Positions 6,873 to 36,281 of a DNA stretch of 38,454 nt are shown here, piece by piece. The translations under genes and the position numbers were made by a program. The notes beneath the pieces are model-generated. The model saw only the letters and a program-made list of their open reading frames with translations. It was not told the origin of the DNA and did no database searches. Positions within the stretch are counted from its first letter, which is position 1; each line of letters starts with the position of its first letter. Source of the stretch: a virus; IMG/VR virus record IMGVR_UViG_3300035698_005317, positions 1 to 38,454 of that record. The stretch is one strand, 5' to 3'.

Positions 6873-6874
6873 GC

Positions 6875-8985: not shown

Positions 8986-8999
8986 GGAGGTAGCATACG

Positions 9000-9758: not shown

Positions 9759-9770
9759 GGAGGATTTCCC

Positions 9771-16553: not shown

Positions 16554-17414
16554 ATGAAGAGCTGGGCTGAAAAGACCTATTGGTTCAAACTGGAGAACGG
16601 GGGCCTGCAAGCCGCCGTAATTGATGATGACGGGATTCCCTTTGACGAATTCGGGGACAGTTTGGACTTGGGGTTCACGACGACGCCCGCCACGCAGTTC
16701 GAGCCTTGCAAAGACTGCACGTTCCTCGGGGACTGCATGAGTTCCCAGTGGAACGAGTTGACCAGGATAGGCGGCCCCGAAAACCCGCTGTGCGTGAGTG
16801 GGGTTGGAACCTGCAAGACCTGTGGGAAGCACACCTTGAGCTTCTGGGCGCGTGGTCCCTTGCGAGAGGTGCCCAAGGAGTGCCCGCGCTGGGACAAGCT
16901 CCAGGGGTCCGCCCTGGACTGTGATAGCTGCCGGGTGGAGAAGGACGACCTCCAAAGAGCGCACCCCGACTACGAGGAATACAGCAAGGCACTGGAAGCG
17001 CTCTCGGGTAAGCTGAACATGCTGGCGGGGCGAAGAGGGGGGAAGTCTCTGATGCAGGCAGGGGCGCTTTACAATGTCCTGAATCTCCACGTCAAGGAAT
17101 ATGAGCCGGAGCGTCTGGTCAAGGCTCAGGCTGTGCTGGGGGTATTGGTCCCGGACATTCGGAGGCGCTTCTCCCAAGAGATGCTCGGGCTCAATGCGGA
17201 GCTGCTGAGTATGATGGGGGCGGGATGGCTGGATGTCCTCTACGTCTCGCTGCTGCGGAACCCTGAAAACCACGAGAAGGTGGCCCATGAGTTCGTCCTC
17301 GTCTTCAACGACAAAGAACCCTTCGCGATGGCGTGGGCGAAAGAAACGGTGGCGACGCGGAAGCTCATCGAGCGCGTCTGGGGTGGCCTCATCCGCAAAG
17401 TCATCCAAGCCTGA
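16554..17414 (+). CDS. Cys-rich putative zinc protein, 286 aa
   Basis: The N-terminal half has nine cysteines in zinc-like pairs: C52/C55, C61, C80, C87/C90, C110, C123/C126. The second half (about 140-286) is helical, with LNMLAGRRGGKSL at about 154-166 and hydrophobic segments around 180-235 (VLGVLVPDIRRRF, LLSMMGAGWLDVLYVSLL). GRRGGKS resembles a loose phosphate-binding loop but does not fit GxxxxGK[ST], so I give it no weight. GGAAGGAGG precedes the ATG. The product is not recognised; Cys clusters suggest a DNA-, RNA- or protein-binding role. Its 3' end overlaps the reading frame of the GIY-YIG nuclease. Confidence 0.55.
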   Translation: MKSWAEKTYWFKLENGGLQAAVIDDDGIPFDEFGDSLDLGFTTTPATQFEPCKDCTFLGDCMSSQWNELTRIGGPENPLCVSGVGTCKTCGKHTLSFWARGPLREVPKECPRWDKLQGSALDCDSCRVEKDDLQRAHPDYEEYSKALEALSGKLNMLAGRRGGKSLMQAGALYNVLNLHVKEYEPERLVKAQAVLGVLVPDIRRRFSQEMLGLNAELLSMMGAGWLDVLYVSLLRNPENHEKVAHEFVLVFNDKEPFAMAWAKETVATRKLIERVWGGLIRKVIQA

Positions 17415-17814
17415 TGAGCGTTTCTGGTGGGTTTACGTCATTCAGTCCCTCGAAGACCGGGGCAATGGACGCCCTGGCTTCCACTACGTCGGGGCCACTA
17501 CAGACCCAGCTCGACGGATACGCCAGCACAACGGCTCCTTAGTCGGCGGGTCTCGATACACCTCCAAGCACAGACCGTGGCGAATGAGGGCGATATTCGG
17601 CCCTTACGCAAACCGTTCCGAAGCCATGAAGGCCGAGTATGCCCTCAAACATGGGAAAAGGGGACGCTCTCGGTGTTTCTGGTCTTTGGGGGATAGTGCA
17701 TGGTGCAGAGGGCTTGGGGTTGAGGACCCTCGTGTGAGTGAAATCAATGCTTCGTGTACTTCCGACCCTTCTGCCACCCTTTCGCTAAAAGACCCAGAGC
17801 TTCGGAAGGGGTGA
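17383..17814 (+). CDS. GIY-YIG nuclease, uncertain start, altered C-terminus
   Basis: The domain starts with FWWVYVIQS, then HYVGATTDPARRIRQHNG, which are the GIY and YIG strands and following Arg of the GIY-YIG nuclease fold. GGSRYTSKHRPWRM and EAMKAEYALKHGKRG continue the small, UvrC-type form. No good start fits: GTG 17383 lies inside the previous gene with only a weak site, while the ATG at 17414, which overlaps that gene's stop, is in another frame. A start-proximal frameshift is possible. After about 17733 the protein no longer matches the downstream paralogue and overlaps the end of the minus-strand homing gene, so its native end was probably replaced. Confidence 0.7.
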   Translation: MASSAKSSKPDERFWWVYVIQSLEDRGNGRPGFHYVGATTDPARRIRQHNGSLVGGSRYTSKHRPWRMRAIFGPYANRSEAMKAEYALKHGKRGRSRCFWSLGDSAWCRGLGVEDPRVSEINASCTSDPSATLSLKDPELRKG

Positions 17815-18496
17815 CGCGGCGGGCTTTCTTCGGGGAACAAATCCAGATGAGGCCCGCAACGTGTTTAGAGAGGTGGTCTTTTACTTCCTTTGAACGACGT
17901 TCTCCTTTCCTTTTCTGGTTGGCGGTTTTGATGGCTTGGCGCAGATTTTCAGGGATGGATTTCCCTCTCCGAGCACTGGACAAAGACATTTTTTGACGAG
18001 CTGTCTCCGACATCACCTTGCCCTTCTGAGCTTCAGAGTTGTTTCGACGAGCTTCCTCAGACATCCGCAAGCCAGTGCGGGATTCGGCACTTCTGCGGAT
18101 AGCTTCAGGGGTCTGCTTGCGGCCTTTGTTGGCTCTTGAAATCTTTGCTCGTGCCTCTTTGCTGATATGGGAGTTGTTGGTCGGACTACGGTTTAGGTTT
18201 AGGCACCCCTCTTTGCCAAAATGTTCGTGGAGCCACTGCCCTTCGGCGTCAATCTGTTGGTCTGGTTCCAGAATCTCTGAGAGAATTTCAGGTTCAAATC
18301 TCCCTTTCTGGTTGAACACGTTTTGCATGTAGGTGTTGGGGTGGGAGCCTTTTTCGAGCGCCGTGAGGTGTCTTCTCCACCTTGCTCGAAAATGCCGAGC
18401 ACGGCCCCCATAATAGTGAGTGTCTGAAAGGTAGAGAAGGTACAGTCCACCTTGCCGGGTTTTTTCGGTTATTGCGGGTAGCTTTATCTTGTTCAT
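17744..18496 (-). CDS. GIY-YIG homing endonuclease with NUMOD3 repeats
   Basis: This is a 250-aa homing-type endonuclease. GLYLLYL (17-23) and YYGGRARHF (28-36) are the GIY and YIG strands, followed by RARWRRH. Residues about 110-200 hold NUMOD3-like DNA-binding repeats: SKEARAKISRANKGRKQT, MSEEARRNNSEAQKGK and MSETARQKM. The end has RRVTPSEALGLLAKGWQKG, a tail common in phage homing nucleases. The gene is visibly more AT-rich than its neighbours and lies opposite to them, both signs of transfer. It is free-standing: no intron joins are evident around it. No strong ribosome site precedes the ATG. Confidence 0.85.
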   Translation of the reverse strand: MNKIKLPAITEKTRQGGLYLLYLSDTHYYGGRARHFRARWRRHLTALEKGSHPNTYMQNVFNQKGRFEPEILSEILEPDQQIDAEGQWLHEHFGKEGCLNLNRSPTNNSHISKEARAKISRANKGRKQTPEAIRRSAESRTGLRMSEEARRNNSEAQKGKVMSETARQKMSLSSARRGKSIPENLRQAIKTANQKRKGERRSKEVKDHLSKHVAGLIWICSPKKARRVTPSEALGLLAKGWQKGRKYTKH

Positions 18497-18529
18497 GCTT
18501 ATGGTGGAGATAGGCTGGTTATTGGGCCT

Positions 18530-18566
18530 TCTATGGCCCCTACCTCGCGCCCTCTACGGCCCCTAC
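18530..18566 (+). repeat. Imperfect 14-bp direct repeat at the homing-gene border
   Basis: TCTATGGCCCCTAC (18530-18543) recurs as TCTACGGCCCCTAC (18553-18566) with one mismatch, 23 bases apart and in different frames. It encodes the LYGPY part of the truncated nuclease. A short duplication here looks like a scar of double-strand-break repair at the edge of the inserted homing gene. Confidence 0.45.
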
Positions 18567-18737
18567 AAGGGCCAGTCGAACGCTCTGAAGGCCGAGTACG
18601 CCTTGAAGCACGGGAAGCGCGGCACGGGGCGTACACGGTGGTCTAGTGAGGACTCCCCTTGGTGTCGTGGAGAGGGTACGGCACATCCTTGGGTCCAAGA
18701 CCCTACCTGGAAGCCTGAGCCGGTTGTGTCCCTATAA
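18546..18737 (+). pseudogene. Decapitated GIY-YIG nuclease paralogue
   Basis: The frame encodes RALYGPYKGQSNALKAEY, then ALKHGKRGTGRTRW and DSPWCRGEG, aligning with RAIFGPYANRSEAMKAEY, ALKHGKRGRSR and DSAWCRGLG of the nuclease at 17383-17814. The GIY and YIG strands and the catalytic Arg are missing, and the upstream in-frame residues are unrelated. Synonymous sites differ widely, so this is an old paralogue, not a fresh copy of the upstream gene. The homing endonuclease lies exactly between the two. It is unlikely to encode an active nuclease; a short product from ATG 18495 or 18501 cannot be excluded. Confidence 0.7.
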
Positions 18738-20360: not shown

Positions 20361-21773
20361 GTGAGTCACGGATGGGAACCCGGAGCTACGGACCAACCTC
20401 GACCGCCTCAGAACGGGGCGGTGGTGAGTTCGTTCGTTACTGGCGTTCTGGACCTTCGGTGGGATGACCCTACTCTTCTGAGAGGGAATTCCGTCTACAC
20501 CGTGGTCGGCGTGAACATTTACCGCTCTGACGCCACTGACCGTGGCCCTTACTACCGCATCAACGAGTTCCCTGTTGGGGGGACCTTCTGGCGCGACCAG
20601 ACCGACAACGTGTTCATCGACCGCGAGGTTATCGACTGGAACACGGGCTGGAAGTTCAAGGGGGACGCCCCAAACAGCCGCGAGTGGACGCTCCGTACTC
20701 AGTACCCCATCGTCAAGAAGGTGGATGCTGCTCCTTTCCAGAAGCCTACTCCCGCCAATGCCAATGTCGATGTGGTTCTCTACATCGACGGGCAAGAGGT
20801 CATTACGGACACGGTCTTCGGTCCGAGCGGGGAGGTGACGCTCATCAACACCAAAGAGGTCACGACGGATACGGAGCGGTACGACTTGCCTGCTCTCCCA
20901 ACGGCGACCTCTATCGTTGAGGTGTCCTATTACGCCAACCGGAACCATGTGCAGTCCGGGCTCGACCTCAACCTGTTCTACCGGTTGACGACCGTGGTCC
21001 TCGACGCCACAACCCCAAGCGGGTACGCAGAGACGGCTCTGGACCAGTGTGAGTGCTTCTCCACCGTGGAAGTGGAGCGCCTCGACTATATCTGGAAGGA
21101 GGCGATTCGCCGTAACCACTGGATTCTCCAGCAGGGCGGAGAGCGTGTAAAGCTGTTCATCCGGCGCACGGCGGGAGTCCCTTGCCAGTGCCAGCTTGAC
21201 CCCAGGATACGAGACGGGCTCAAGCAGCCAATGAACAACTGTCGGTCCTGTTTCGGGACAGGGTTCGTTGGGGGATACGACGGGCCTTTTGACATCATCA
21301 TTGCGCCGGATGATGCTGAACGCAGAATCTCGCAGACCCCGTGGGGACGCAAGAAGGAGCACACCTACGAGGTGTTCATGACCAACTCTCCGGTCGTGAC
21401 CCAGAGAGACTTCCTCGTCAAGCAGACGAACGAGCGCTATTCCATCGGTGCAGTGAGGCGTCCCACGAACCGGGGCAACCTACTCCAGCAGCACTTCAAC
21501 ATTGGCTACCTGGACGAGAGCTACATCCAGTACAGGGTCCCCATCGACGGGACCGCTCAACTCCCGTGGCCGCAGACTCGATACGGCTACCGCCCGGCTC
21601 CCCACGTCTCAGTGGACGGCGACAACTATCGCTCCCCCTCGACGGAGCCTACAGAGGCCCCGTATCCCGAAGGCCCCGAAGCTCGTATCCCGATGCAAAC
21701 TTCGAAGGACAACACCCCCGACGATGTCGAGCAGAGGGGACGTACCCCCGCTTGGGAGAACATCGAGTATTAG
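20361..21773 (+). CDS. Putative neck/connector virion protein with CxC...CxxC zinc site
   Basis: This is a 470-aa protein starting at GTG 20361, four bases after AGGAGG. It is mostly beta with many aromatic residues. C275/C277 and C294/C297 form a zinc knuckle, the latter in CRSCFGTGFVGGYDG, which looks like a DnaJ-type CxxCxGxG loop. The last 80 residues are Pro-rich and polar. The beta-rich fold and gene position (between accessory genes and the neck proteins) suggest a head-tail or tail-completion protein. I believe similar CxxCxGTGfxGGY proteins occur in other large myoviruses but cannot verify this here. Confidence 0.6.
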   Translation: MSHGWEPGATDQPRPPQNGAVVSSFVTGVLDLRWDDPTLLRGNSVYTVVGVNIYRSDATDRGPYYRINEFPVGGTFWRDQTDNVFIDREVIDWNTGWKFKGDAPNSREWTLRTQYPIVKKVDAAPFQKPTPANANVDVVLYIDGQEVITDTVFGPSGEVTLINTKEVTTDTERYDLPALPTATSIVEVSYYANRNHVQSGLDLNLFYRLTTVVLDATTPSGYAETALDQCECFSTVEVERLDYIWKEAIRRNHWILQQGGERVKLFIRRTAGVPCQCQLDPRIRDGLKQPMNNCRSCFGTGFVGGYDGPFDIIIAPDDAERRISQTPWGRKKEHTYEVFMTNSPVVTQRDFLVKQTNERYSIGAVRRPTNRGNLLQQHFNIGYLDESYIQYRVPIDGTAQLPWPQTRYGYRPAPHVSVDGDNYRSPSTEPTEAPYPEGPEARIPMQTSKDNTPDDVEQRGRTPAWENIEY

Positions 21774-21784
21774 CAGGGGGTTGA

Positions 21785-22435
21785 GTGGCTACAGGTGGTT
21801 TCAAGAAGGTACGAGGCACTTACGGAACACCTTGGTCCCGTCTTGCCCAGGTCCCCATCTCCAAAGAGATGCTGGATAAAATCGGGGAGTGCTGTGTTCG
21901 CGTCTTTGCAGAGGAAGCCAAGAAGGACTTTGCGAAGCGGGGCTGGTCGCCTCGTGACCCGATGGGAGGGCCGAACATTGGTGACTCCTTCAGCTTCAGC
22001 ATCTCCGGGGAACGAACAGTGGAAATCCTGTCGTCCTTCTATGGGGTGGCGGAGCTGGCTCAGGGGAGCATCCCCGAGCGAAAGATGGTGTGGCTCACAC
22101 AGGGCAGCAAAGAGCGAAGTCCCGCCCGGTACAAGATGACGGAAGCTGAGCGTCGCCAGAAGGCGGCCAGGAAGGCGGCAGCAGCTCGAAAAGCCAAGGC
22201 TGGGGTGAAGATGACTCGTAGGGAGCGCCTGCCCCTGGTGGTTCCCCTCAGGGACAAAGCGGGCCAGATAGTGTTCCGCATGGCTCCTCTCACGACCGCC
22301 AAGGCTTGGATACATCCGGGAATCGCTAAATTCACCTTCGCACAGCGGGCCATTCGAAAGGCCAAGGAGCAGTGCATTGAGGTGCTGAAAGAGGCGGCGA
22401 TGGATGCGTTCATGGATGGAGACCCCACACAATGA
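21785..22435 (+). CDS. Putative neck/tail-completion protein, 216 aa
   Basis: GTG 21785 follows a GGGGG-containing site. The protein begins with a basic, Gly-rich stretch, then has helices (EMLDKIGECCVRVFAEEAKKDF) and RGWSPRDPMGGPNIGDSFSFSI, where helices precede a P-x-x-x-G-x-x-x-x-S pattern. This recalls HK97-gp10-type tail-completion proteins, whose helices are followed by PxxTGxLxxSI. A Lys/Arg/Ala-rich insert (about 125-150) breaks the domain, and the C-terminal helix is acidic. The gp10 likeness is weak. The stop overlaps the next ATG. Confidence 0.5.
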   Translation: MATGGFKKVRGTYGTPWSRLAQVPISKEMLDKIGECCVRVFAEEAKKDFAKRGWSPRDPMGGPNIGDSFSFSISGERTVEILSSFYGVAELAQGSIPERKMVWLTQGSKERSPARYKMTEAERRQKAARKAAAARKAKAGVKMTRRERLPLVVPLRDKAGQIVFRMAPLTTAKAWIHPGIAKFTFAQRAIRKAKEQCIEVLKEAAMDAFMDGDPTQ

Positions 22436-23016
22436 AGGAAGCTCGTCTCACATGCCGGACCCAGTTCTACCGTGTGGGGGACCTGAACCTGCGAATGGTG
22501 CGGGGAGAAGAACGCTTCGTGTCCGCAGAAGAGGCTCGGGCATCTTCGGACCTGCGAGTAGCGCAGAAGGCCGGAGCCATCGAGGTCCTCTTTGTGGAGC
22601 GTAGCCGGGAAATCAGGCAACCCGTTCAATCGCAGCTCCGCGTGAACGTGCCTCCCAAGTCCAAGCACGCCATCATTGGAGCGCGTCCGGTACAGGTTCC
22701 TCAAGCAGCTCCTCCTGAGCTGACCAAGGAGCAGGTGTCGGAGCTGATACGGGCACACCTCGCAGACTTCAAGGGGGACCTCTCTGTTCTCCTGCGAGAG
22801 CTACTGGGTGGGCAGACCGTTGTTCAGGCTCCTGTAGCGGGTACAGTGACACAGGCGCGGGAGAAGGCAGAAGGCCCTGAGCTTGTCTTCGTCCCTCAGC
22901 ACATCATGCGTGACCACAAGGCGGACATCTCCGTAGAAGAAACGGAGGAGTCAGGGACCGGCGTGGACGCCGCGATAGAGGCCCTGAGGGCTGCCAGAAA
23001 GAAGGAGACTCCATGA
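22432..23016 (+). CDS. Unknown protein, 194 aa, upstream of the actin-like gene
   Basis: The ATG overlaps the previous stop. The N-terminal 65 residues form a small domain (QFYRVGDLNLRMVRGEE, then helix SAEEARASSDLRVAQKAG and strand AIEVLFV). The middle is a Pro-rich linker and the rest a helical segment with ELTKEQVSELIRAHLADF. The C-terminus is acidic then basic. No family can be named. It is translationally coupled on both sides, so it should be made together with the actin-like protein and could be its partner. That link is inferred from gene order only. Confidence 0.5.
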   Translation: MKEARLTCRTQFYRVGDLNLRMVRGEERFVSAEEARASSDLRVAQKAGAIEVLFVERSREIRQPVQSQLRVNVPPKSKHAIIGARPVQVPQAAPPELTKEQVSELIRAHLADFKGDLSVLLRELLGGQTVVQAPVAGTVTQAREKAEGPELVFVPQHIMRDHKADISVEETEESGTGVDAAIEALRAARKKETP

Positions 23017-24023
23017 GCGACGAGAAGCAAGTCCCGGCCACCCTGGGAATCGGGCTCGATATTGGAACCATGAACCTCGTTTCCGCACGCCGTGGCCCCA
23101 AAGGGGTCGTGACCAAGCGTATGCGGGACGTGTTCCTCGACCTGCCCCCGAATGCCAAGAAGATGCTCAAGCTCTCCCAGACGAGCTTCGTCGAGCGTGA
23201 GGACGATGTGGTCATCCTCGGGGACGCCGCTCTGGAGACTGCCAACGTCTTCGGCAAGGAGCCGCGCCGTCCGCTGAAAGCCGGGCTCGTGTCGCCGGAG
23301 GAGTCTGACAGCCTCGAAATCCTGGGCCTCCTCATCAAGGAGGTCCTGGGACCGCCGAAGGTCAAGAATGAGGTCTGTTACTACTCAGTGCCCGCCGCGC
23401 CCATCGACCAACCCGAGAAGGACATCATCTACCACCGGGCAGTGTTCGAGCGCATTGTGGCGGAGTGCGGGTACCGGGGCATCGCCTCGAACGAGGGCAT
23501 GGGAATCATCTATGCCGAGACGGCAGCGGACCAGTTCTCAGGCATCGCTCTGAGCTTCGGGTCCGGCATGACCAATGTGGCTCTGGCCATCAACACTATC
23601 GAGGGCCTCACTTTCTCTGTCGCCCGTGGCGGCGACTGGATGGACCAGGGAGCGGCTCAGTCTACAGGTTCGACACAGGCTCGGGTCTGCGCCATCAAGG
23701 AGCGGGGCATCGACCTCACGAATCCTCAGGGGCGTGTGCAAGAGGCTCTGGCCTTCTACTACCGGGCGCTCATCGACTACGCCATCGACCAGATTGAGGA
23801 ACGGTTCAAGTCCGTGGCAACACAGTTCGCGCTTTCGAAGCCCATCCCGATTATCGTTTCGGGTGGCACGAGCAAGGCGGGTGGCTTCATGGACCTCTTC
23901 AACGAGGTCTTCGAGGCCAAGCGCAAGCGGTTCCCAATCGAAATTTCCGAAGTACGGCACGCAGCGGAGCCGCTCAACGCGGTGGCGATGGGGATGCTGG
24001 TTCTGGCAACACAGGAGGACTGA
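23013..24023 (+). CDS. Actin-like ATPase (MreB/ParM superfamily)
   Basis: This is a 336-aa protein, the usual size for ParM or MreB. Phosphate-1 motif: LGIGLDIGTMN (11-21, with D16). Phosphate-2 region: ALSFGSGMTNVAL, where S181-F-G replaces the usual D-x-G. Adenosine motif: IIVSGGTSKAGGF (about 280-292). VCYYSVPAAPID and GYRGIASNEGMGIIYAE match the subdomain linking these motifs in archaeal and bacterial ParM/MreB-like proteins. It probably binds ATP and may polymerise; phage or plasmid relatives move DNA or particles. Finding it inside the neck cluster, coupled to both neighbours, is unusual. The loss of Asp at phosphate-2 may alter hydrolysis. Confidence 0.85.
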   Translation: MSDEKQVPATLGIGLDIGTMNLVSARRGPKGVVTKRMRDVFLDLPPNAKKMLKLSQTSFVEREDDVVILGDAALETANVFGKEPRRPLKAGLVSPEESDSLEILGLLIKEVLGPPKVKNEVCYYSVPAAPIDQPEKDIIYHRAVFERIVAECGYRGIASNEGMGIIYAETAADQFSGIALSFGSGMTNVALAINTIEGLTFSVARGGDWMDQGAAQSTGSTQARVCAIKERGIDLTNPQGRVQEALAFYYRALIDYAIDQIEERFKSVATQFALSKPIPIIVSGGTSKAGGFMDLFNEVFEAKRKRFPIEISEVRHAAEPLNAVAMGMLVLATQED

Positions 24024-24061
24024 TGAACAGAGCTGAAATTCTGCGTAGGGAGGAGGACTGA
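24023..24061 (+). CDS. 12-codon minigene MNRAEILRREED
   Basis: ATG 24023 overlaps the actin-like gene's stop and has AGGAGG at 24013-24018. Its own stop (24059-24061) overlaps the next ATG as TGATG. The codons AGG GAG GAG double as the ribosome site of the next gene. It may serve as a coupling or leader peptide rather than a functional protein. Confidence 0.4.
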   Translation: MNRAEILRREED

Positions 24062-24315
24062 TGTTTGCGTTGATTGTGACCGGCGTCTGCAATACGGACC
24101 TGAAGAAAAAGGGCTTCGACACTTTCCCCAGCAACGATGACGGGGAGAGCGCCATCTACACGGTGGGGTCCAAAGAGGGCATGGAGGAGCTGGTCTCCTC
24201 CTGGCCCGAAAAAAAGGCGGACCCGAAGCCCTACCACCCGTTCAAGTACCGCGTGACGCCTGAGGGGCTCCAGGTGACGACTCAAATCGTCCGTGTGACC
24301 GCCAAGGAGGGCTGA
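24061..24315 (+). CDS. Small unknown protein, 84 aa
   Basis: The ATG follows GGGAGGAGG and overlaps the minigene's stop. The chain looks alpha/beta: MFALIVTGVC strand, a DLKKKGFDTFPS turn, SAIYTVGSKEGMEELVSSW (strand plus helix), and a final beta hairpin (KYRVTPEGLQVTTQIVRV). No family is recognised. The position in a tight operon with the actin-like gene suggests co-regulation. Confidence 0.5.
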   Translation: MFALIVTGVCNTDLKKKGFDTFPSNDDGESAIYTVGSKEGMEELVSSWPEKKADPKPYHPFKYRVTPEGLQVTTQIVRVTAKEG

Positions 24316-24316
24316 C

Positions 24317-24634
24317 ATGGCCGACACCTATCATGGCAAGATGAGGGAGCAGCGTGGGCACATGGAGGTCCGGAGATATCGGCTCCCTGCGGCTCAGGTC
24401 TGCATGGTCATCAAGGACAAGAGGATGACCGTTGTCGGGGAGCTTCTCGTGATGGGTGAGGGCAAGCTGCCGCTTGAAGAGGACATCACCATGCTGGAGG
24501 GCCTGTGGCAGGAAGAAGCGGAAGCGGAGCGGCCCTCCAGCATGGTGCCCGACTTGGACCCGGATGTGACACCCCCTTCGAAGAGCACACGGGAACTGTT
24601 CGCCGTTCTCAAGGGAGAGCCGCAAAATGAATGA
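24317..24634 (+). CDS. Small unknown protein, 105 aa
   Basis: AAGGAGG lies upstream of the ATG at 24317, one base after the previous stop. The N-terminal half has a beta hairpin (HMEVRRYRLPAAQVCMVI, MTVVGELLV). The C-terminal half is acidic and Pro-rich (EEAEAERPSSMVPDLDPDV). The end overlaps the next gene by eight bases. No family is recognised. Confidence 0.45.
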   Translation: MADTYHGKMREQRGHMEVRRYRLPAAQVCMVIKDKRMTVVGELLVMGEGKLPLEEDITMLEGLWQEEAEAERPSSMVPDLDPDVTPPSKSTRELFAVLKGEPQNE

Positions 24635-24941
24635 GCCCGTTCGAGTACGCTTCGAGACCTGCGGCGAGATGGTCGAGTGGATTGCTCGGAAGCGCAAGCT
24701 CGACTTGCCCGTGGAGTCGAAGGACACGTCCTTCGATAGGGATGTGGGGTTCTTGTGCGAGAACTTCCATGCCGTCATTCACATCACGAAGGTGATGACC
24801 ACAGCCGGGGTTGCACGTTCTGCCATCGAGGAGTTCTTCGGGGAGATGCCTGAGGAAATCAAGGACCGTAGCGCCTTTGCCACCCCCCGTTCGCGGCACT
24901 GGCTCGCCACGGGGGAGCTTCTGCCAGAAAAGGATGGGTGA
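24627..24941 (+). CDS. Small unknown protein, 104 aa
   Basis: It starts inside the previous gene's end; GGGAGAG lies just upstream of the ATG at 24627. The chain is mostly helical (CGEMVEWIARKRKLDLP; FLCENFHAVIHITKVMTTA; RSAIEEFFGEMPEEIK). The GTGA overlap couples it to the next gene. No family is recognised. Confidence 0.45.
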   Translation: MNEPVRVRFETCGEMVEWIARKRKLDLPVESKDTSFDRDVGFLCENFHAVIHITKVMTTAGVARSAIEEFFGEMPEEIKDRSAFATPRSRHWLATGELLPEKDG

Positions 24942-26128
24942 AACCATTGTATTTTCAGCTAACTGAGGCTATGAAGCGGCGGTTCATCTATGAGCTGAGA
25001 CGGTACTGGCAGTACCATCCCCGGCACCGGGACATCGTGGACCATATCCAGGGCAAGTTCTCGTTCGAAGAGCGCCCCTCACGCGGCATCGTCGTGAAGG
25101 CTGCGGGCGGCAACCGCTTCGACCTGTCCGCCGACAACTACATGGGGGTCCAGGACAGCTACGTGTACCTGACCAAGGCGGGTCGGTATCCCGGAGTGGC
25201 TATCGAATGGGTGCGGGAGGATTCGGTAGCCATCCAGAACAATGGGGGTACTTTTCCGTCGGTAGCGGGGGTCTACTTCATCGAGCTGACGGAAGACGAG
25301 CAGTTCTACGTGGACCCCTTGTACGATGTGCGGGGAGAAGTTGTTGCGGAGATAGACTCCTCCATCTACCAGCTCCAGAATGTCCCTCTGGCGGGTTCGC
25401 TGCGTCTGTACGAGATGCCTGCCGGGTATCAGCTCTTCGAGGGGACCAACTACACCCTGGACGACACTGGGGGTATCACGCTGGCCCAGGCGCTCACGGG
25501 GGGCAGAACCCTCCGGGCAGATTACCGCTATCCAGGAGAGAGCAGAGGACCTTTCACGCTGTACCCCAACCATGCTAACAGACAAGCCATCCCCGGTGTT
25601 GTTCTGGCCTTCGGGCGCCGGAACGAGAAGGGCGACCGCATGGCCGTGGTGGTGCAGAGCTATCGGCAACCCGCAGCTCTGGAGTACGGCGGGAAGTGGC
25701 AGCTCTCGATGGAGTTCGAGGTCATGGCCGGAGACGTGTACGACCAGATGGAGATTGCGGACCAGTCCGTCATGTTCCTCTGGGGCGTCGCCCGCTCATA
25801 TCTCGTGGACGAGGGCATTAATATCACGGACCTGTCTCTCGGGGGAGAGGCCGAAGAAATCGCGGACGAAACCGGGGACGACTACTTCTATACCTCCTCC
25901 TTCTCGTTGACCGTGGAGACAGACTGGTCCATCTTCGTGCCTCTGGATGTCCGCTTGCAGCACGCAGTCCCGCTCACTCTGGAGCAGGCCAAGGTTGCTG
26001 CGGAGATGACCGATGAGGAGGTGTCTTCGATGGGGAACAACATCCGAATGCTGGAGGATTTGGGTCTGATGCGGTTGTCGGACCCCTACTTCCAGGACAA
26101 GACTCGGAATTTCGAGATTATCCGGTAA
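24938..26128 (+). CDS. Putative tail/neck structural protein, 396 aa
   Basis: GTG 24938 overlaps the previous stop. The N-terminus has FIYELRRYWQYHPRHRDIVDHIQGKFS, a helix-rich segment, followed by a long beta-rich body with Tyr- and Asp-rich strands (GVYFIELTEDEQFYVDPLYDV, YPGESRGPFTLYPNH, GKWQLSMEFEVMAGD). The last 100 residues are acidic then helical. The beta-rich body and position just before the sheath gene suggest a tail terminator or neck protein. No named family was recognised. Confidence 0.55.
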   Translation: MKPLYFQLTEAMKRRFIYELRRYWQYHPRHRDIVDHIQGKFSFEERPSRGIVVKAAGGNRFDLSADNYMGVQDSYVYLTKAGRYPGVAIEWVREDSVAIQNNGGTFPSVAGVYFIELTEDEQFYVDPLYDVRGEVVAEIDSSIYQLQNVPLAGSLRLYEMPAGYQLFEGTNYTLDDTGGITLAQALTGGRTLRADYRYPGESRGPFTLYPNHANRQAIPGVVLAFGRRNEKGDRMAVVVQSYRQPAALEYGGKWQLSMEFEVMAGDVYDQMEIADQSVMFLWGVARSYLVDEGINITDLSLGGEAEEIADETGDDYFYTSSFSLTVETDWSIFVPLDVRLQHAVPLTLEQAKVAAEMTDEEVSSMGNNIRMLEDLGLMRLSDPYFQDKTRNFEIIR

Positions 26129-26165: not shown

Positions 26166-26606
26166 ATGCCCCTGTACGTTTTCCAGTGCGAATGCGGCGT
26201 TCGGTTCGAGCAGGAGGCTCGAATGAAGGACCACGCCAAACCCGCTACTTGCCCGGACTGCGGGGAGGAAGCTCCTCGTTGGGTGCCCGATGAGGTGAGC
26301 GGTGTCATGCACCATCCCGTCAGCGGTCCAGGACCCCAGAACACGGGGACCTCCAAGGATGTGGACTATGACCGCGTGATTGGCGAGTCCGCCGAGGTGG
26401 GGTGGAAAGAACAGACCCTTCGGGACACGGAGAAGGCTCGCGTCATCGCTTCCGAGGGTGCTGCGCGTGCCGACCTTTCTCTCCAGCCGGACGGCACCTA
26501 CAAGGTGCTCAAGCCGGAAGAGCGAGGGGTACATGACCGGGCGCTCAATATCCACAACAGAGCTATGGCCCTCCGCAAGGGCCTCGGCAAGAAATCCTCC
26601 CGATAG
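26166..26606 (+). CDS. FmdB-like zinc ribbon protein (second copy)
   Basis: This is a 146-aa protein. TAGGAGG sits five bases before the ATG at 26166. MPLYVFQCECG and TCPDCGEEAPRWV give C8/C10 and C29/C32, a zinc ribbon of the FmdB type with CxC replacing the first CxxC. The rest is polar, with His pairs (MHHP) and a basic C-terminus (RKGLGKKSSR). It shares only the ribbon with the copy at 6875-7255. It is the last gene before the sheath gene and its leader. Confidence 0.75.
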   Translation: MPLYVFQCECGVRFEQEARMKDHAKPATCPDCGEEAPRWVPDEVSGVMHHPVSGPGPQNTGTSKDVDYDRVIGESAEVGWKEQTLRDTEKARVIASEGAARADLSLQPDGTYKVLKPEERGVHDRALNIHNRAMALRKGLGKKSSR

Positions 26607-26824: not shown

Positions 26825-29800
26825 ATGAGTTTCCTGCAAGAAGCCTATGCACCTCCGGGCGTTTACGTCCAGACGGATTTCGAGAATCCGCTCGCGGCTG
26901 CTCTCACCTCCCTCAAGATTCCGGTCTTCATCGGAGAGGGTAGTGAACTGCTCGACCAGACGGACCTTGAACTCGTTCGCGGCAGCTCCTCTTCGGTGGA
27001 CCAGCGCCGTGTGGACGAGGACGAGACGGGTCGTGCGGTGGTCAGCATCTCCGCAACGGGTGTGGTGACACGCGGGGCCTTCGATGGCGCGTTGGACAAG
27101 TTCCAAGTCCAGCACTTCCCCATCGTGACAGGTAACGGCACGGGCAGTACCTCGAACAGCCGGACCAATGTGAGCGTCACCATCAACGGGGACCCCATCG
27201 TAGTTCGCAATGTCTTGGGCGTGAGCGGAGTCATCCAGCTTGCCCAGGCTCCCGAGCCCGGCGATGCAGTTCTCTGCACCTACTACTTCAACCGCACGGA
27301 CACCCTCGTCATGGACAACGTGAGCGAGCAGGTGGACCCGGACACGGCAGTCGTGCGTGCAGGCTCCGGCTTGCTCGACAGCGACTCCCCCGGCAGTGTG
27401 GGTGGTGCAGGTGGTGGGGCGGAGACGCTCGACATTCACGGTGACATCCTCGACGCCAATGGCACGGTCATCGTCGAGAACAACAACACCCTGAGTCTGA
27501 CTGTGGACGGCACGGACGTGGAAATCGTCCTGCCTGTGCGCAGCGACTACAAGATGTCCCAAGTGGCTTCGGCCATCACGGCGGCGAAGAAGGGCACCCT
27601 GACGGGCGGCACTTTCGTCAACCAGTACGGCCAGTCCACCCTGATGCTCGTGTCGGACCACAGCGTTGTGGTGAACGAAGGCACGGCCAACGGCATTCTC
27701 GGTCTCCTCACGGGGCAGGCGGACACCCGAACCTCGACCTTCTACACCTTCCAAGGCCCTATCGTCACGGGCGACAATGGTGGTGTGACTACGACCGACC
27801 CGAGCCACGTCACGGTGAAGGTGAACGGCGTCCAGGTCATTCCGACCAGCGTGGACGGCTCCAGCCGTGCGGTAACGTTGGCTCAGTCCCCGAAGGCGGG
27901 CGCGACGGTCTCCATCGCGTACTACTTCAACTCCTGGCAGGACACGTTCGACTACCTCCAGAACAGCAACGTCGCGAGCGTCTCGCGCTGTGGCGATGTC
28001 CCCGGAGGCTCGGGCTACACGCAGGGTTCCGACTTCATCCTCCAGGACGACAAGATTCTGTGGGGCACGGCGAGCGTGGTCGAAAGCGGCACGCATTCCA
28101 CGGGCTCGCAGTATTTCGGGGAACGTCAGGTCTCGACTTCCCTCATCGACAACCGCACCTTCCTCGACGCCTGCTCTTCGGTCACGCTCAGCTCGGGCGG
28201 CGTCTCTGTGGCGAGCAAGCGCAGCTTCACCCTGCCCCTGAGCCCCACGCTGGGAAACGGGCGCAACACCCCGCTCGGCAGCAGCCTGTACCAGACGGTG
28301 GCCAATGGACGCATCGACGTCCCGGTCAACCGCCCGGACGTGGTGTGGGCCTACTGGGGCTGGGATGAACAGGACGCTCTCGACCGAGGCAAGGTCGATG
28401 TTCTCAAAGTCGAAGGCAACATCATCACCCTGGGTGAGAGTGTGCCGGTCGGCGCGACGGTCTACGCGACCTTCTACTACAACCAAATCGAAGACGCGGA
28501 GTACACGCTGACTTGCGTGAACCCCGGCCTCTCCGGCACCGGCACCTACAGTGCCGAGGATGCCCTCGGGGATGAGGTCTTCGGGGCCTTCTACAACCCG
28601 GCAACCAAGGGTTCTGGGCTCACGGGCGTCAGCATCGAATTCCCCTCGGGCTCCGAGTTGACTCCGGACCTTCGTTTCGAGGCGGTGTCCGGCAATGACT
28701 TCGCCGGTCCGGTCGAGGAAATTGTCACGGTTCAATTCGCTACCAAGCTGGCGACTCCGGCGAAGTACAGCGTGCCCGGTTCTGGTCCGTATAGCTTCAT
28801 CCCGACCTACTCGGACCATCTCGCGGTCAAGGTCGGCGGCGTGAACATCTCCTCCACGGCTGGCCTCGACCTCCAGAATCCCTCGGGGTTCAACTCGGGC
28901 TTCCTCGCCACCATGCTGAGCGCGGAAATCGAGTACGACGGCAACGGTGTCGGCATCGTGGGCGAGTCCTACGAAGTGGATGTCTCGCAGGAGTTCGTCA
29001 TCACCGTGGACGGCACGGACGTGGAAGTGTCTACCGGCACCTCGCTGGTCCAAGCGGTGGACATCAGCTTCTTCGCGAACGCCATCAATGAGGCGGCCAA
29101 CGGACATCAGTCCACAGCGGACGGTGGCGGTGTGGCCTCCATCGAGCTGGACATCACCACGCGGCGCGACGTGCTCAACGGCTACGTCGGCTGGCGGGTC
29201 GTCATCGGTACAGGTGCGGCAGCGGCCACGGCAGGTCAGTATGCCACGGTCACGGCCTACAACCCGACCACGGGCGTCTGCACGATGGACGGCAACTGGG
29301 TTGGCGGCGCGGTCATCGCAACGGACCCCTACTACATCTACAACCCCGAAGCGCGTTCCGCGATGCCTACCGTGACCTCGTTCAACGGTCCGGTGGCTCT
29401 GGCAGCGGGAGCCTTCACTTCCCTGCGCGTCGCCTACACGGGTGACGTGGCTGGGCTCCTCACCTTCGAAGCGACCATCGGAGCAGGTCCCTTTGCTACC
29501 CCGAGCGCGATGGCGACCGAGGTACAGGCGCAGCTCGCAACGGTCATCACTGCGGGTGTGGCTCTTTCTCCGAACCATGCGGGTCTGGCCATCGAGGTCG
29601 TCGCCAATGCCAACGCTGAGTTGGAGTTCCGGCTCCAGCTCCCTGGTCTCGACAGCATGGGCTTCATCCAGTTCATCGAAGCCTCCGGTGGCCGTGTGGC
29701 CGACTTCGCCGCACTCGCGGGCCTCGACGTGGGCACCGCAGTTGGACAGGGTCAAGCGGCTCTGCTCCAGTGCCCCATCGCTCGCACCTACGAAGTGGCG

Positions 29801-32134
29801 GGGACTGGCGGCGAGAAGCCTTACGACAGGCTCATCCTCCGCAACCGCCTTCTGCCGGGACGCGGCGGCTGGCAGGCTCCGTGGAAGGTGCTGTCGAACG
29901 CAAGCCTGTACGTCAAGGTCGGCAACGACATGGCGGGCATCGAGACGGCGGACTTCGCAATGCCGGGTGTCTCGGCGGCTGTGGTCCCCGCAACCGTGGC
30001 AGGGTACATCAACCTGCTGGGCGGCATGGACACGGTCACTTCGGAGCCTCAGGTCACGTTCTACGACGGGACCGGTACGAAGCCCGCGAACAACGAGTTC
30101 AGCTTCGAGATGGACGGCAACCCCGTCACGGTGACGTTCACGGGTGACGCCAACGGCACGCCCACGGACCTCGGCCCGATGGCGGGTACGGGCAACGGCT
30201 CCATCCTCGACCAAATCATCGACGCGATGGAAGCAGTCCCCGGCGCTCCTTGGGGCACGGCACCGGAAATCTACGCCGCACGCCTCGTGTGGTCCGACGG
30301 CGCGGGTATCCGTCTCACGGGCGACAAATACGACACGACGGGTCGTATCACCATCGGCAGCGGGAGCGCGAACAGCACTCTTGGTTTCACCTCCGGCACG
30401 TCCGCGATGCGGACCACGGTGGACCCGAAGGTTCTGGCTTCGGCCCTCATGTCGAACCAGCACACCGCGTTCGCCAGTTGGATGTTCAACGTCGTCCTCT
30501 CCTCCACCAGCGTCTTCGCCAACGTCGCGCTGGCAGGGACCATCGAGGATGCCGCTGGGCAGGAGTACCTGTACCTGCAAGACGCAGCTTCGGCTGTGGG
30601 CAACCTCGGAGCCTCTTCGGTCATCGGCCTGTTCGATACCTTCCAGAGCATCGCAAACGCGCTGCGCTACGACGCTGGTCTCGAAGCAGAGAGTGGTGAC
30701 GGCGCGGTGGGAGAAGCGGCTCTCAACGGCTTCGTGGTCACGTCGAGCAACCCGAGCGGGTCCGGGTCGGTCAACGATTCGATTCTCGACGACGGCGTAG
30801 GCCAGGACGGCATGGTCGGCCAGACCTACCGTGACTCGGTAACGGGCCTGACTTTCACCCTCCTTCCGCGTGGCTGGTCCTCGAATCAGACGGGTCCGTG
30901 GATTGCGTACCCGGTCGGCGCCCTCGCGACCTTCCGTATCAACTGCTCCAAGACGTTCACGACGGACGCCAACATTCCGCACAACGCCCTTCCGGGCGTC
31001 GAGCTGAAGGTGTCGAATACGGAGACCGTTGCGGCAGGGGACACGGCCATCGTGAGCACCTATCCGCGTGGCGGGTACGAGCCGACCATCGGAGACCTCT
31101 ACTACGTCTCCTACGACTACCTGAAGCAGGGCTTCGCAACGGCCTTCTACACGAAGCTGTCCACCATCGAGGCGAACTACGGCGCGGCGACCCCGGACTA
31201 TCCGGTTAGCCTCGCTTCCAACCTCTGCGTCCTGAACGGTGCGATGCTCGTCGGCATCAAGCAGGTCCTCAAGGAGACGGGCTCCTCGCAGGCCAGCCTC
31301 ACCAGCTACGTCCAGGCTATCACCGACCTCGAAGGTGTGCTGGCCGGTCAGGTCCAGCCCGACATCATCACTCCGCTACGGGGCGATTCCATCGAGCTGT
31401 ACCAGATTCTCAAGCGCAGCAACGCCATCCAGTCGAGCATTCGCTACCGGGCGGAACGCACGAGTATCGTGGGCGTCAGCGCCGGGACTACCCCGGAGCA
31501 GGTGCAGTCGATGGCTCAGGTGCTCGGGGAAACTCGAATGCGGGTCGTCTACCCGGACATGGTCGTCATCCAGCTCCAGGACCAGTTCAACAACACGAGC
31601 GAGGCGCTCATCGACGGTACCTACGTCGCAGCGGCTATGGCGGGTTCGGTCGTGAGCCCCAATGTGGACGTAGCAACACCGTGGACGGGCCGCCGTCTGG
31701 TTGGCTTCTCCCGGCTCGGGCGCAACCTGGATGCGGTCCAGCAGAATCAGGTCGCGGTCAGGGGCGTCACGGTCCTGATTGACCAGTCTCCGTTCCTCCG
31801 GGTTCGTCATGGCCTCACGACGGACATGACCAACGTGCTGACCAAGATTCCTACGGTCATCTTGATTGCCGATGAGGTTCAGCAGCGGTCCCGCCGCACC
31901 CTGGACAACTTTGTTGGCGTCAAGTACCTGCCGGGGGTGTTGACTCAGGTCGAGGGTCGTCTGGCGATGATGCTCAAGGGCCTCGTGGCCTCGCAAATCA
32001 TCAGCGCCTACACGGGTGTATCGGCAGCGGCGGACAAGGATGACCCGACGACCGCAACGGTGGAGGCGTACTACAGCCCGGTCTTCCCGCTGCTGTACCT
32101 CATCCTGAGCTTCCACATGCGGAGCAGCCTGTAG
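26825..32134 (+). CDS. Tail sheath protein, unusually large (1769 aa)
   Basis: This protein forms the contractile outer sheath of the tail. The N-terminus has APPGVYVQTDF (8-18), the usual sheath start. The conserved C-terminal domain lies at about 1480-1769, with TTPEQVQSMAQVLGETRM, RRLVGFSRLGRNL, VTVLIDQSPFLRVRHGLTT and EGRLAMMLKGLVASQI. T4 gp18 is 659 aa, so about 1000 residues are extra. They include repeats: VxVxxNG...VxLAQxPxxGAxVxxxYYFN at about 116-161 and 329-375, a weaker copy at 525-560, and two TVDGTDVE modules (223-, 724-). These probably form surface domains. A hairpin follows the gene. Confidence 0.93.
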   Translation: MSFLQEAYAPPGVYVQTDFENPLAAALTSLKIPVFIGEGSELLDQTDLELVRGSSSSVDQRRVDEDETGRAVVSISATGVVTRGAFDGALDKFQVQHFPIVTGNGTGSTSNSRTNVSVTINGDPIVVRNVLGVSGVIQLAQAPEPGDAVLCTYYFNRTDTLVMDNVSEQVDPDTAVVRAGSGLLDSDSPGSVGGAGGGAETLDIHGDILDANGTVIVENNNTLSLTVDGTDVEIVLPVRSDYKMSQVASAITAAKKGTLTGGTFVNQYGQSTLMLVSDHSVVVNEGTANGILGLLTGQADTRTSTFYTFQGPIVTGDNGGVTTTDPSHVTVKVNGVQVIPTSVDGSSRAVTLAQSPKAGATVSIAYYFNSWQDTFDYLQNSNVASVSRCGDVPGGSGYTQGSDFILQDDKILWGTASVVESGTHSTGSQYFGERQVSTSLIDNRTFLDACSSVTLSSGGVSVASKRSFTLPLSPTLGNGRNTPLGSSLYQTVANGRIDVPVNRPDVVWAYWGWDEQDALDRGKVDVLKVEGNIITLGESVPVGATVYATFYYNQIEDAEYTLTCVNPGLSGTGTYSAEDALGDEVFGAFYNPATKGSGLTGVSIEFPSGSELTPDLRFEAVSGNDFAGPVEEIVTVQFATKLATPAKYSVPGSGPYSFIPTYSDHLAVKVGGVNISSTAGLDLQNPSGFNSGFLATMLSAEIEYDGNGVGIVGESYEVDVSQEFVITVDGTDVEVSTGTSLVQAVDISFFANAINEAANGHQSTADGGGVASIELDITTRRDVLNGYVGWRVVIGTGAAAATAGQYATVTAYNPTTGVCTMDGNWVGGAVIATDPYYIYNPEARSAMPTVTSFNGPVALAAGAFTSLRVAYTGDVAGLLTFEATIGAGPFATPSAMATEVQAQLATVITAGVALSPNHAGLAIEVVANANAELEFRLQLPGLDSMGFIQFIEASGGRVADFAALAGLDVGTAVGQGQAALLQCPIARTYEVAGTGGEKPYDRLILRNRLLPGRGGWQAPWKVLSNASLYVKVGNDMAGIETADFAMPGVSAAVVPATVAGYINLLGGMDTVTSEPQVTFYDGTGTKPANNEFSFEMDGNPVTVTFTGDANGTPTDLGPMAGTGNGSILDQIIDAMEAVPGAPWGTAPEIYAARLVWSDGAGIRLTGDKYDTTGRITIGSGSANSTLGFTSGTSAMRTTVDPKVLASALMSNQHTAFASWMFNVVLSSTSVFANVALAGTIEDAAGQEYLYLQDAASAVGNLGASSVIGLFDTFQSIANALRYDAGLEAESGDGAVGEAALNGFVVTSSNPSGSGSVNDSILDDGVGQDGMVGQTYRDSVTGLTFTLLPRGWSSNQTGPWIAYPVGALATFRINCSKTFTTDANIPHNALPGVELKVSNTETVAAGDTAIVSTYPRGGYEPTIGDLYYVSYDYLKQGFATAFYTKLSTIEANYGAATPDYPVSLASNLCVLNGAMLVGIKQVLKETGSSQASLTSYVQAITDLEGVLAGQVQPDIITPLRGDSIELYQILKRSNAIQSSIRYRAERTSIVGVSAGTTPEQVQSMAQVLGETRMRVVYPDMVVIQLQDQFNNTSEALIDGTYVAAAMAGSVVSPNVDVATPWTGRRLVGFSRLGRNLDAVQQNQVAVRGVTVLIDQSPFLRVRHGLTTDMTNVLTKIPTVILIADEVQQRSRRTLDNFVGVKYLPGVLTQVEGRLAMMLKGLVASQIISAYTGVSAAADKDDPTTATVEAYYSPVFPLLYLILSFHMRSSL

Positions 32135-33717: not shown

Positions 33718-36281
33718 CTTTCGGAACCGCAGCCCAGATGGCCCATACGGTGTTGGACGCTCAGACGCGCCAGCCGGTGGAACTCGCCATGCAGCACCTT
33801 GACCTTACGGGCCGAGCCAATCCAGCGGGGGCGTTCCTTCGGGCAACGCATCGCTTCCAGTGCAAGGGAGACAAGCCCCTCGAAGCCTTGTACGTCTTCC
33901 AGCTCCCCAGGCAGGGCACGTTGCGGCGCTTCGTCGTCAAGGGCCAGGACTTCGAGATGGCGTCCAAGCTGAGCCCCCGCGTGAAGGCCCGCAAGGAATA
34001 CGAGGAGGGCGTCCAGGACGGGCACCTGTCTGTCCTGGCTGAGTCGTCTCTGGACGGCCTCGTGACCCTCTCTGTCGGGCAGATTCGCCCAGGGGAAGAG
34101 GTCACGGTCATCGTGGACCTCGCAGTGGGCGTCGAGCCCGAAGATGGCAAGTTCCGTTTCCGTTACCCCTTCACCCTCGCGCCCAACTACCACGCACAGG
34201 CCAAGGCGAGCGGTGGCACGTTGGAGTTGCCGGAGGACATCTTCGGGGACCTCATCCTCCCCGAGTGGAAGGACAAGGCTGACGGCCTGCATCAGATTTC
34301 GTTCCGCCTTCACGTCGAGGCTGGCGGCACGCTGGGTTCCGTGGGGTCCCCTTCCCACAAGGTCGAGATTCAGCCCAACGATGACGGCAGCGCCGACGTG
34401 TTCCTCGCGGGCAACAACACTGTCCCCAACGGCGACCTCGTCGTGGACGTGAAGGTGCGTGAGGCAGCTCCGACCCTGTTCATCGACGAGTCCTTCGATA
34501 CGAAGCTGCCCAAGAGCGCTCCCCGCTGGACGGCAAGCATCCCGTCCAGCATCATCCCGAAAGCCTCGGCGGCTCCTCGGCGTGTGTGCTTCCTGCTGGA
34601 CCGCTCCGGTTCCATGAGCGGCTCCCGCATCGAGCGGGCAGTCGCGGCCCTCGACGCCATGCTCGCCGGGCTCGCCCCCGAAGACGAATTCGGTCTCGTG
34701 GCCTTCGGCTCGACCACCGTGGCCTTCGACGAAAAGATGGGCAACGCGACTGACGTGAACCGGGACCGTGCCCGCAAGTGGCTCGCAGAAGGCAGGTGCC
34801 TCGGCGGGACCAACATGGTCTCTGCGCTGCGGAAAGCCGTGGACGTGCTGGGCGGACCCGGCGCAGACATCATGCTTCTGACCGATGGCGAGGTTTGGAA
34901 TACCGGCCCCCTCGTCGAGCAGGCAGCGGCTTCGGGCTCGCGTATCCACGTCCTCGGTATTGGTGAGGCGGCGCAGGACCGTTTCCTCGAAAGCCTCTCT
35001 CGTCGGACGCAGGGTGTCTCGAAGATGGTCAGCGTCAACGAGGACGTGGCGAGTGCGTCTCTCCAGCTCTTCTCTGCCGTGCGCCACCCTGTCCAGATGG
35101 ACGTAGAAGCCATCGTTACGACGGGCAAGAAGATGCAGACGAGCCTCGTCAAGACCGTGTGGGACGGCAGGCCGGTACTCCTCACCGACACCGGCAAGAC
35201 GGGCAAGTCCCGTCCGACCAGCGTGAAGTTCAAGTGGGCGGGCGGAGAGAAGACCGTCAAGCTCGACATGGTGTTCCAGACACCCAACGGCTTGTCCGCC
35301 ATCATGTGGGCGGCACGGCAGCTCTCCGACCTCGACAGCGCCATCGACATGATGGGGGGAACTGAACAACTGGGGAGCCAGCCCCTCATGAAGGAGATGG
35401 AAGACCTCTCCACAGCCTACGGGATGGCGAGCCGGGCCATGAGCCTGTGTGCTGTCGTGGAACGTCTCGGGGACCAAGTCGGTGAGCAGCCTGTCCAGCA
35501 GGTCGTCCCGGTGATGATGCCTTCGGACATGACGGGTGAGAAGAACACCGTGGCAGCTCTGTGCCTTAGCCTGAGTTCGCGTGTGGGCGGTGCTTCGGGG
35601 CAGAGTCTTCGAGGGGACGTCTACTACAGCATGGACTTCGCGCCCAAGAACTTCGCGCCTACTCGTGGTGTTCGTTCTCGCTGCGTCGGCTTCCAGGCCG
35701 ATGCCCTCATCGGTTGCAGCGTGGACAACACGGGCCTCCCGAACCTCGGCACCACCCAGGACTGCGCCAGAGGTGTCGATAACGACACCTACAAGAGCGT
35801 GACGATTGGCGAGATGAGCGAGAGGGGGCTGGGTGAGAGGATGGATGGGAGCCTCGTCGCTACTGTCGGCCACCTGATGGCTGATGGCGGGATGCCGGGG
35901 ACCACGAAGGAGCTGCGCTACGCCAAGACCGTGGTGCTCGCTCTCGCCCTGCTCAAGCTCGACGTGGCGGCGTTCGCGCCGCTGTACTCGACCCACCGCA
36001 ACCGCATCGCGGACTTCATCGAGGCCAATCGGGATAAGACTGAGGCCGACCCCTGGATGGACACTTTCCTGCTGATGCTGCGGGCGGGGAATGCCTCGGT
36101 CCCCAACGGAGACTGGGATGGCCGCTATCTCGCTCTCGTGAGGTCCTCCGACACCTCGGAGATGACCGAAGCCTTCGAGGCTCTGGTCAAGGAAGCTCGG
36201 TTCTGCGTTCTCCCCACCCCTGACCGCTCGAATCCCTCAATAGTCCTCCAATCCGTTCCTCTTCATAGGACACTCGACTGA
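33714..36281 (+). CDS. VIT-VWA domain protein, 855 aa
   Basis: The ATG at 33714 is preceded by AGGAGG at seven bases. Residues about 10-140 form a VIT domain (ALYVFQLPRQGTLRRFVVKG, then ARKEYEEGVQ and VTLSVGQIRPGEEVTVIVDL). Residues about 290-460 form a VWA domain with a complete MIDAS: D296-x-S298-x-S300, T366 and D391. Such metal-dependent sites bind protein partners. A C-terminal part of about 250 residues is not recognised. No signal peptide is seen, so it acts in the cytoplasm or on the particle. VIT-VWA proteins are bacterial and eukaryotic; finding one between phage sheath and tube genes is unexpected. Confidence 0.92.
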   Translation: MTFGTAAQMAHTVLDAQTRQPVELAMQHLDLTGRANPAGAFLRATHRFQCKGDKPLEALYVFQLPRQGTLRRFVVKGQDFEMASKLSPRVKARKEYEEGVQDGHLSVLAESSLDGLVTLSVGQIRPGEEVTVIVDLAVGVEPEDGKFRFRYPFTLAPNYHAQAKASGGTLELPEDIFGDLILPEWKDKADGLHQISFRLHVEAGGTLGSVGSPSHKVEIQPNDDGSADVFLAGNNTVPNGDLVVDVKVREAAPTLFIDESFDTKLPKSAPRWTASIPSSIIPKASAAPRRVCFLLDRSGSMSGSRIERAVAALDAMLAGLAPEDEFGLVAFGSTTVAFDEKMGNATDVNRDRARKWLAEGRCLGGTNMVSALRKAVDVLGGPGADIMLLTDGEVWNTGPLVEQAAASGSRIHVLGIGEAAQDRFLESLSRRTQGVSKMVSVNEDVASASLQLFSAVRHPVQMDVEAIVTTGKKMQTSLVKTVWDGRPVLLTDTGKTGKSRPTSVKFKWAGGEKTVKLDMVFQTPNGLSAIMWAARQLSDLDSAIDMMGGTEQLGSQPLMKEMEDLSTAYGMASRAMSLCAVVERLGDQVGEQPVQQVVPVMMPSDMTGEKNTVAALCLSLSSRVGGASGQSLRGDVYYSMDFAPKNFAPTRGVRSRCVGFQADALIGCSVDNTGLPNLGTTQDCARGVDNDTYKSVTIGEMSERGLGERMDGSLVATVGHLMADGGMPGTTKELRYAKTVVLALALLKLDVAAFAPLYSTHRNRIADFIEANRDKTEADPWMDTFLLMLRAGNASVPNGDWDGRYLALVRSSDTSEMTEAFEALVKEARFCVLPTPDRSNPSIVLQSVPLHRTLD

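Follow-up and report, generated by a model that had tools for sequence, protein, structure and literature searches.

The window analyzed in this study, a 38,454-base virus record that is probably a fragment, carries an intact open reading frame (ORF) for a 336-amino-acid (aa) protein at positions 23013 to 24023 of the plus strand, on which all of the neighboring module genes also lie. A profile match, a structure model, and a set of invariant residues point to an actin-superfamily ATPase of Pfam family PF25216, referred to here as phage volactin. The start of its ORF overlaps the stop of a 194-aa ORF at 22432 to 23016 (ATGA), and its stop overlaps a 12-codon ORF at 24023 to 24061 (TGATG), for which there is no evidence of function and which overlaps, in turn, the start of an 84-aa ORF at 24061 to 24315 (again TGATG). 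The overlaps with the 194-aa ORF and the minigene had been described in the initial annotation of this DNA and are confirmed here, as are the phosphate-1 motif GLDIGTMN, which contains D16, and the adenosine motif VSGGTS, which spans residues 282 to 287. Homologues with 65 to 76% identity are found on many viral contigs, and dN/dS values for close phage pairs range from 0.04 to 0.27; sequence comparison thus indicates strong purifying selection, and the Pfam score, the homologues, and the dN/dS values together place the ORF far beyond chance.

Upstream of the volactin gene lie genes for a 470-aa conserved module protein (20361 to 21773) and a 216-aa conserved virion-module protein (21785 to 22435), followed by the 194-aa gene. 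Downstream of the minigene, three small ORFs of 84, 105, and 104 aa (24061 to 24941) form a variable stretch; then come genes for a 396-aa conserved module protein (24938 to 26128), a 146-aa zinc-ribbon protein (Pfam Zn_ribbon_8; 26166 to 26606), a 1769-aa tail sheath protein (26825 to 32134), and a 269-aa conserved protein with no family match (36366 to 37175). When the window proteins were compared with all loci, this order, with its variable small genes, was constant. Profile searches found the 216-aa gene, the most constant upstream neighbor, in all 44 loci for which 9 kb or more of upstream sequence was available and the 470-aa gene in 38 of them; downstream, the 396-aa gene, which borders the slot, was present in 50/62 loci, the sheath gene in 45/62, and the 269-aa gene in 21/62. 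None of these neighbors was found by the same profiles at any of the cellular volactin loci. Within the main phage clade, the volactin gene occupies a single fixed slot, with conserved virion-module genes before it and the tail sheath gene after it.

The sheath assignment is based on a PHROG tail sheath match (3.1e-22) to the C-terminal part of the protein, which 16 of 16 homologues share. The other module proteins are named from their positions, and on that basis the 269-aa product is probably the tail tube. The initial annotation had placed the gene in a phage neck cluster: the sheath bears out its location among virion genes, but a neck specifically is not proven, since the fold search with the 216-aa neighbor used a model with a pLDDT of 74 and gave no PDB match with an E value under 1.

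Several other features of this region were recorded. At many loci, the sheath ORF gives a weak match (1e-5 to 1e-10) to the 470-aa protein profile, and the two products may share a domain. The virion cluster encodes two FmdB-like zinc-ribbon proteins (6869 to 7255 and 26166 to 26606) that match each other's homologues, and the second gene lies just before the sheath gene in most relatives. Between the sheath gene and the presumed tube gene, positions 33726 to 36281 encode an 851-aa protein that combines VIT and VWA domains, as inter-alpha-trypsin inhibitor heavy chains do. Elsewhere in the window are two adjoining ORFs of the GIY-YIG-like, homing-endonuclease type on opposite strands (17233 to 18496), beside an ORF with a repeated ALKHGKRG fragment (18489 to 18737), and three consecutive paralogous genes with similar N termini, RNDI/RNDL...VLDL.PN (8182 to 10748). 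One of the small ORFs after the volactin gene, that of 105 aa, contains a perfect 17-nucleotide inverted repeat with a 27-nucleotide loop (24487 to 24547). In a related 297-kb phage record, a second, diverged copy of the block of 470-aa, 216-aa, and volactin genes lies near the contig end (L320, the record of locus L080; minus strand, 5976 to 7016 and neighboring genes); either the module is duplicated or the contig is chimeric.

The sole meaningful Pfam match of the 336-aa protein was Volactin (PF25216; E = 2e-79; 267.8 bits against a cutoff of 35), covering positions 3 to 321 of the 321-position profile; the same family search exceeded the cutoff in the Haloferax volcanii control genome. An AlphaFold model built from 53 aligned relatives (pLDDT, 93.9; pTM, 0.90) has an actin fold over its full length, and its closest solved structures by VIA-align were the MamK filament (Z score, 28.9; 294 of 336 residues aligned at 3.0 Å), the BeeR filament (27.4), MreB (about 26), and actins and crenactin (about 25), a ranking with which Foldseek agreed. 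The profile of the 53 relatives reached MamK (1e-9), FtsA, BeeR, and MreB in the PDB, where the single sequence found no match. PHROGs contained no family for the protein, and its immediate neighbors had none or weak ones. The best matches among viral structure models, namely, Hsp70s, Bacillus phage G gp506, and Hsp70- or actin-related proteins of eukaryotic viruses, were only 11 to 16% identical; that library therefore contains no close viral relative.

Sequence and model together thus assign the protein to the volactin family of the actin superfamily, and the earlier claim of an actin-fold ATPase among virion genes is borne out by its family, fold, and surroundings. The assignment also withstood the refutation named in the initial annotation, that sugar kinases or Hsp70 might match better, since the top solved structures are MamK, BeeR, MreB, and actins; membership in the superfamily of ParM, MreB, and AlpC holds, but the nearest family is volactin rather than ParM or AlpC. 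Hsp70 (PF00012) gave no match, MreB_Mbl was not among the matches at E values up to 10, and the protein ends after the ATPase fold, without a C-terminal substrate domain. With no such profile matches and no parC-like array, assignments to Hsp70, MreB, or ParM were rejected or lacked support.

The residues of the nucleotide site are strongly conserved. The landmarks are D16-x-G18-T19 (phosphate-1), N160-E161 (connect-1), S181-x-G-x-G-x-x-N188 (phosphate-2), the GGDW motif at 206 to 209, K229-E230, and GGT at 284 to 286 (adenosine). D16, G18, T19, E161, K229, G284, and G285 are invariant across 53 to 54 homologues, so that the phosphate-1, connect-1, and adenosine motifs of the actin superfamily are all present, and E230 is kept in every row tallied from phages, haloarchaea, and bacteria. 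The phage protein has the complete volactin motif set (DxGT, S-x-G-x-G-x-x-N, GGDW, KE, and GGT), a set derived from the relatives in this analysis, with no published definition behind it.

At phosphate-2 (SFGSG, residues 181 to 185), the Asp of the actin superfamily consensus DxG is missing, and Ser181 stands there in the whole volactin family. None of the 54 aligned relatives, from phages, bacteria, and archaea, departs from the pattern S-x-G-x-G-x-x-N; S181, G183, G185, and N188 never vary among 92 phage rows, 17 haloarchaeal rows, and 60 further rows, most of the last from Planctomycetota and Omnitrophota, a set recruited in part by a pattern over this same motif. E161 in the catalytic region, the K229-E230 pair, and D16-G18-T19 likewise show little or no variation. 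The intervening residues differ: phages have S-F/Y-G-S/A-G, haloarchaea S-F-G-A-G, and planctomycetes mostly S-C-G-G-G, which mismatches the recruiting pattern, so those rows must have entered through a second one. Because the Ser is invariant across all of these groups, the missing Asp is read from the alignments as a mark of the volactin family, and phage-specific decay of the motif was rejected; the SFG reading in the initial annotation stands, but not as the oddity of one phage. As a family trait, the substitution does not exclude membership in the actin superfamily by fold and homology.

In Haloferax volcanii, the filaments that volactin forms in vivo are dynamic and unstable, and the protein affects cell shape (PMC10869688). 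Since that protein polymerizes, the phosphate-2 substitution alone is no argument against filaments, the haloarchaeal motif being known from 17 relatives. The MamK- and MreB-like fold, the nucleotide-site residues, and this polymerizing homologue make ATP-driven filament formation the probable activity of phage volactin, and we hold this part of our interpretation with some confidence. In the absence of the Asp that most actins use at phosphate-2, hydrolysis rate and filament dynamics could differ, and the loop equivalent to the position of a polymerization-blocking mutation in MamK has a phage-specific sequence.

The protein is also well conserved relative to its neighbors. Mean identity over phage pairs was 0.63 for volactin, compared with 0.55 for the sheath, 0.53 for the 396-aa protein, 0.53 for the 470-aa protein, and 0.36 for the 216-aa protein; only the presumed tube protein (0.64) equaled it. 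Pair by pair, volactin was the more conserved protein in 90% of comparisons with the sheath and in 95% of those with the 396-aa neighbor. In one IMG/VR record (L319, the record of locus L296; minus strand, 400 to 2523), an intein interrupts the volactin gene in frame, precisely at the GGDW motif; it starts C-LAGD and ends VHN, is followed by CGDWID, and includes a LAGLIDADG-like stretch, LFGMFLGDG. Inteins favor functionally critical sites. Neither tubulin nor an MreB match over the cutoff was found in 15 large records, 14 of which are IMG/VR virus contigs; where present, therefore, volactin is the only recognizable member of these families.

On balance, and with modest confidence, we favor the view that phage volactin forms a dynamic filament by which capsids, tails, or DNA are positioned or moved within infected cells. 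The other readings are less probable. One is that the protein is a nonfilament or virion-associated ATPase that helps to assemble the very long tail, as a chaperone or in length control, a role comparable with that of the closterovirus Hsp70 homologue discussed below. The fixed position between conserved module genes and the sheath gene and the overlap with the preceding gene are in keeping with such a role; however, modules with the same sheath and neighbors can lack the gene. In reciprocal scans, volactin was present in 36 and missing in 5 of 41 loci anchored on the 396-aa gene and present in 27 and missing in 12 of 39 anchored on the sheath, counts that incomplete records may affect and for which part of the sample had been recruited through volactin itself. 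A search for PF25216 anywhere in volactin-less records found no match on contigs of 536, 257, 206, and 169 kb, so tails of this kind can form without volactin. Since the fold is also nearest to filament formers, with no Hsp70 substrate domain in the 336 aa, we regard an assembly ATPase as unlikely.

In several of the volactin-less records, the 216-aa gene is followed, directly or after one or a few small genes, by the 396-aa gene. The six volactin-less representatives are scattered over the sheath tree and need six changes, at least four of them required by well-supported branches; ancestral presence with repeated loss is the simplest reading. A slot that empties while the virion gene order stays argues against an obligatory role in building the virion, which weakens the candidate of an obligatory tail component; judging from these sequences, volactin is not essential for the virion. 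Strong conservation when present, a place among virion genes, and repeated loss point to a helper that improves assembly rather than a part of the virion.

A second alternative is that the protein is directed at the host, copolymerizing with, capping, or replacing the host cytoskeleton and so enlarging or reshaping the cell. The effect of volactin on H. volcanii cell shape (PMC10869688) fits this idea, as does its frequency in possible host groups: PF25216 exceeded the cutoff in 46 of 78 sampled genomes of Halobacteria and in 49 of 119 of Planctomycetota, and scattered absence could follow host changes. The phylogeny, however, shows no recent host copy. Forty-six phage proteins form one clade (support, 100/99) on a stem of 0.83 changes per site; this old branch, together with the even GC content along the window, led us to reject a recently stolen host gene. 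Placement among virion genes is also a poor fit for early remodeling, and we consider this alternative improbable. At least 467 IMG/VR stretches encode relatives, the best 80 of them on contigs of up to 618 kb, and 2 of 50,697 annotated phage records matched, both uncultured huge phages (485 and 595 kb). Two divergent phage volactins fall outside the main clade in other gene contexts, one beside an AAA clamp-loader-like gene (L011, 3667 to 4755) and one beside a glycosyltransferase-like gene (L014, 15022 to 16041), which suggests separate acquisitions by phages.

Very improbable, finally, is a ParM-type filament for DNA segregation, by which the phage genome would be centered or maintained as a low-copy element: known phage and prophage actins (AlpC and ParM-like proteins) serve replication or segregation (PMC4446434), and the L011 gene lies beside a clamp-loader-like gene, but positions 22000 to 25200 hold only chance-like repeat pairs rather than a parC-like tandem array, no constant adaptor gene accompanies volactin, and the gene keeps its place among tail genes throughout the main clade. 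The 194-aa upstream protein was considered as a ParR-like partner, a candidacy weakened by its homologue in a volactin-less locus (L252), which indicates that it is no obligate partner; an adaptor may be encoded elsewhere.

In the favored reading, that of a cargo-positioning filament, phage volactin, an ATP-binding protein by family and fold, would polymerize into dynamic filaments in the infected cell. Since the gene is embedded with overlapping frames in the virion operon, the protein would be made when heads and tails are made, that is, late, and its filaments would most likely serve to place or transport capsids, tails, or packaged DNA within a large host cell, the job done by PhuZ tubulin in nucleus-forming phages. 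Neither a dedicated adaptor nor a membrane anchor could be identified, and none of the virion genes of the operon points directly to intracellular transport.

H. volcanii volactin (HVO_2015, VolA) belongs to the same family by the curated profile (PF25216) and is similar in length; haloarchaeal volactins are about 40% identical to the phage protein and share S-F-G-A/S-G-M at phosphate-2 and GGDW. Unlike the cell-shape gene of H. volcanii, however, the phage gene belongs to a tail operon of huge phages and to a separate old clade, and its filaments are predicted. The volactins of Planctomycetota and Omnitrophota are 40 to 44% identical and have the invariant Ser but differ in their cellular context and mostly S-C-G-G-G motif. 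MamK, MreB, and BeeR filaments share the fold over the full length (Z scores of 26 to 29) at about 20% identity, whereas phage volactin matches neither MreB nor any other actin Pfam family and does not have the consensus Asp at phosphate-2. AlpC (prophage CGP3) and phage ParM-like proteins are also phage-borne members of the superfamily but come from different actin families in segregation or replication contexts. Closteroviruses offer an analogy, an actin/Hsp70-superfamily ATPase in a viral assembly setting, where an Hsp70 homologue (HSP70h) is built into the virions; that protein, however, is an Hsp70 proper of a eukaryotic RNA virus. PhuZ of nucleus-forming jumbo phages is likewise a cytoskeletal superfamily protein that very large phages make for themselves, but the likeness is one of analogy only, as PhuZ is an unrelated tubulin. 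Our literature search found no report connecting volactin with phages, and the huge-phage paper names tubulin, not actin; volactin and phage actins of other families were already known, and the huge-phage volactin clade fixed in the tail operon appears to be new.

We propose, tentatively and as a possibility somewhat short of even, that huge phages without PhuZ tubulin independently evolved a volactin-family actin cytoskeleton dedicated to, and expressed with, virion assembly; phages would then employ each of the two eukaryotic-type cytoskeletal superfamilies for one and the same task. If true, this would give the PhuZ spindle an actin counterpart in phages, along with a purifiable protein with which the organization of assembly could be tested in huge phages that have no recognizable tubulin. 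The invariant, nonstandard phosphate-2 site of volactin departs from the textbook actin motif. The family itself, of which a haloarchaeal member has so far been the sole subject of study, extends across haloarchaea, Planctomycetota, Omnitrophota, and several hundred contigs from viruses.
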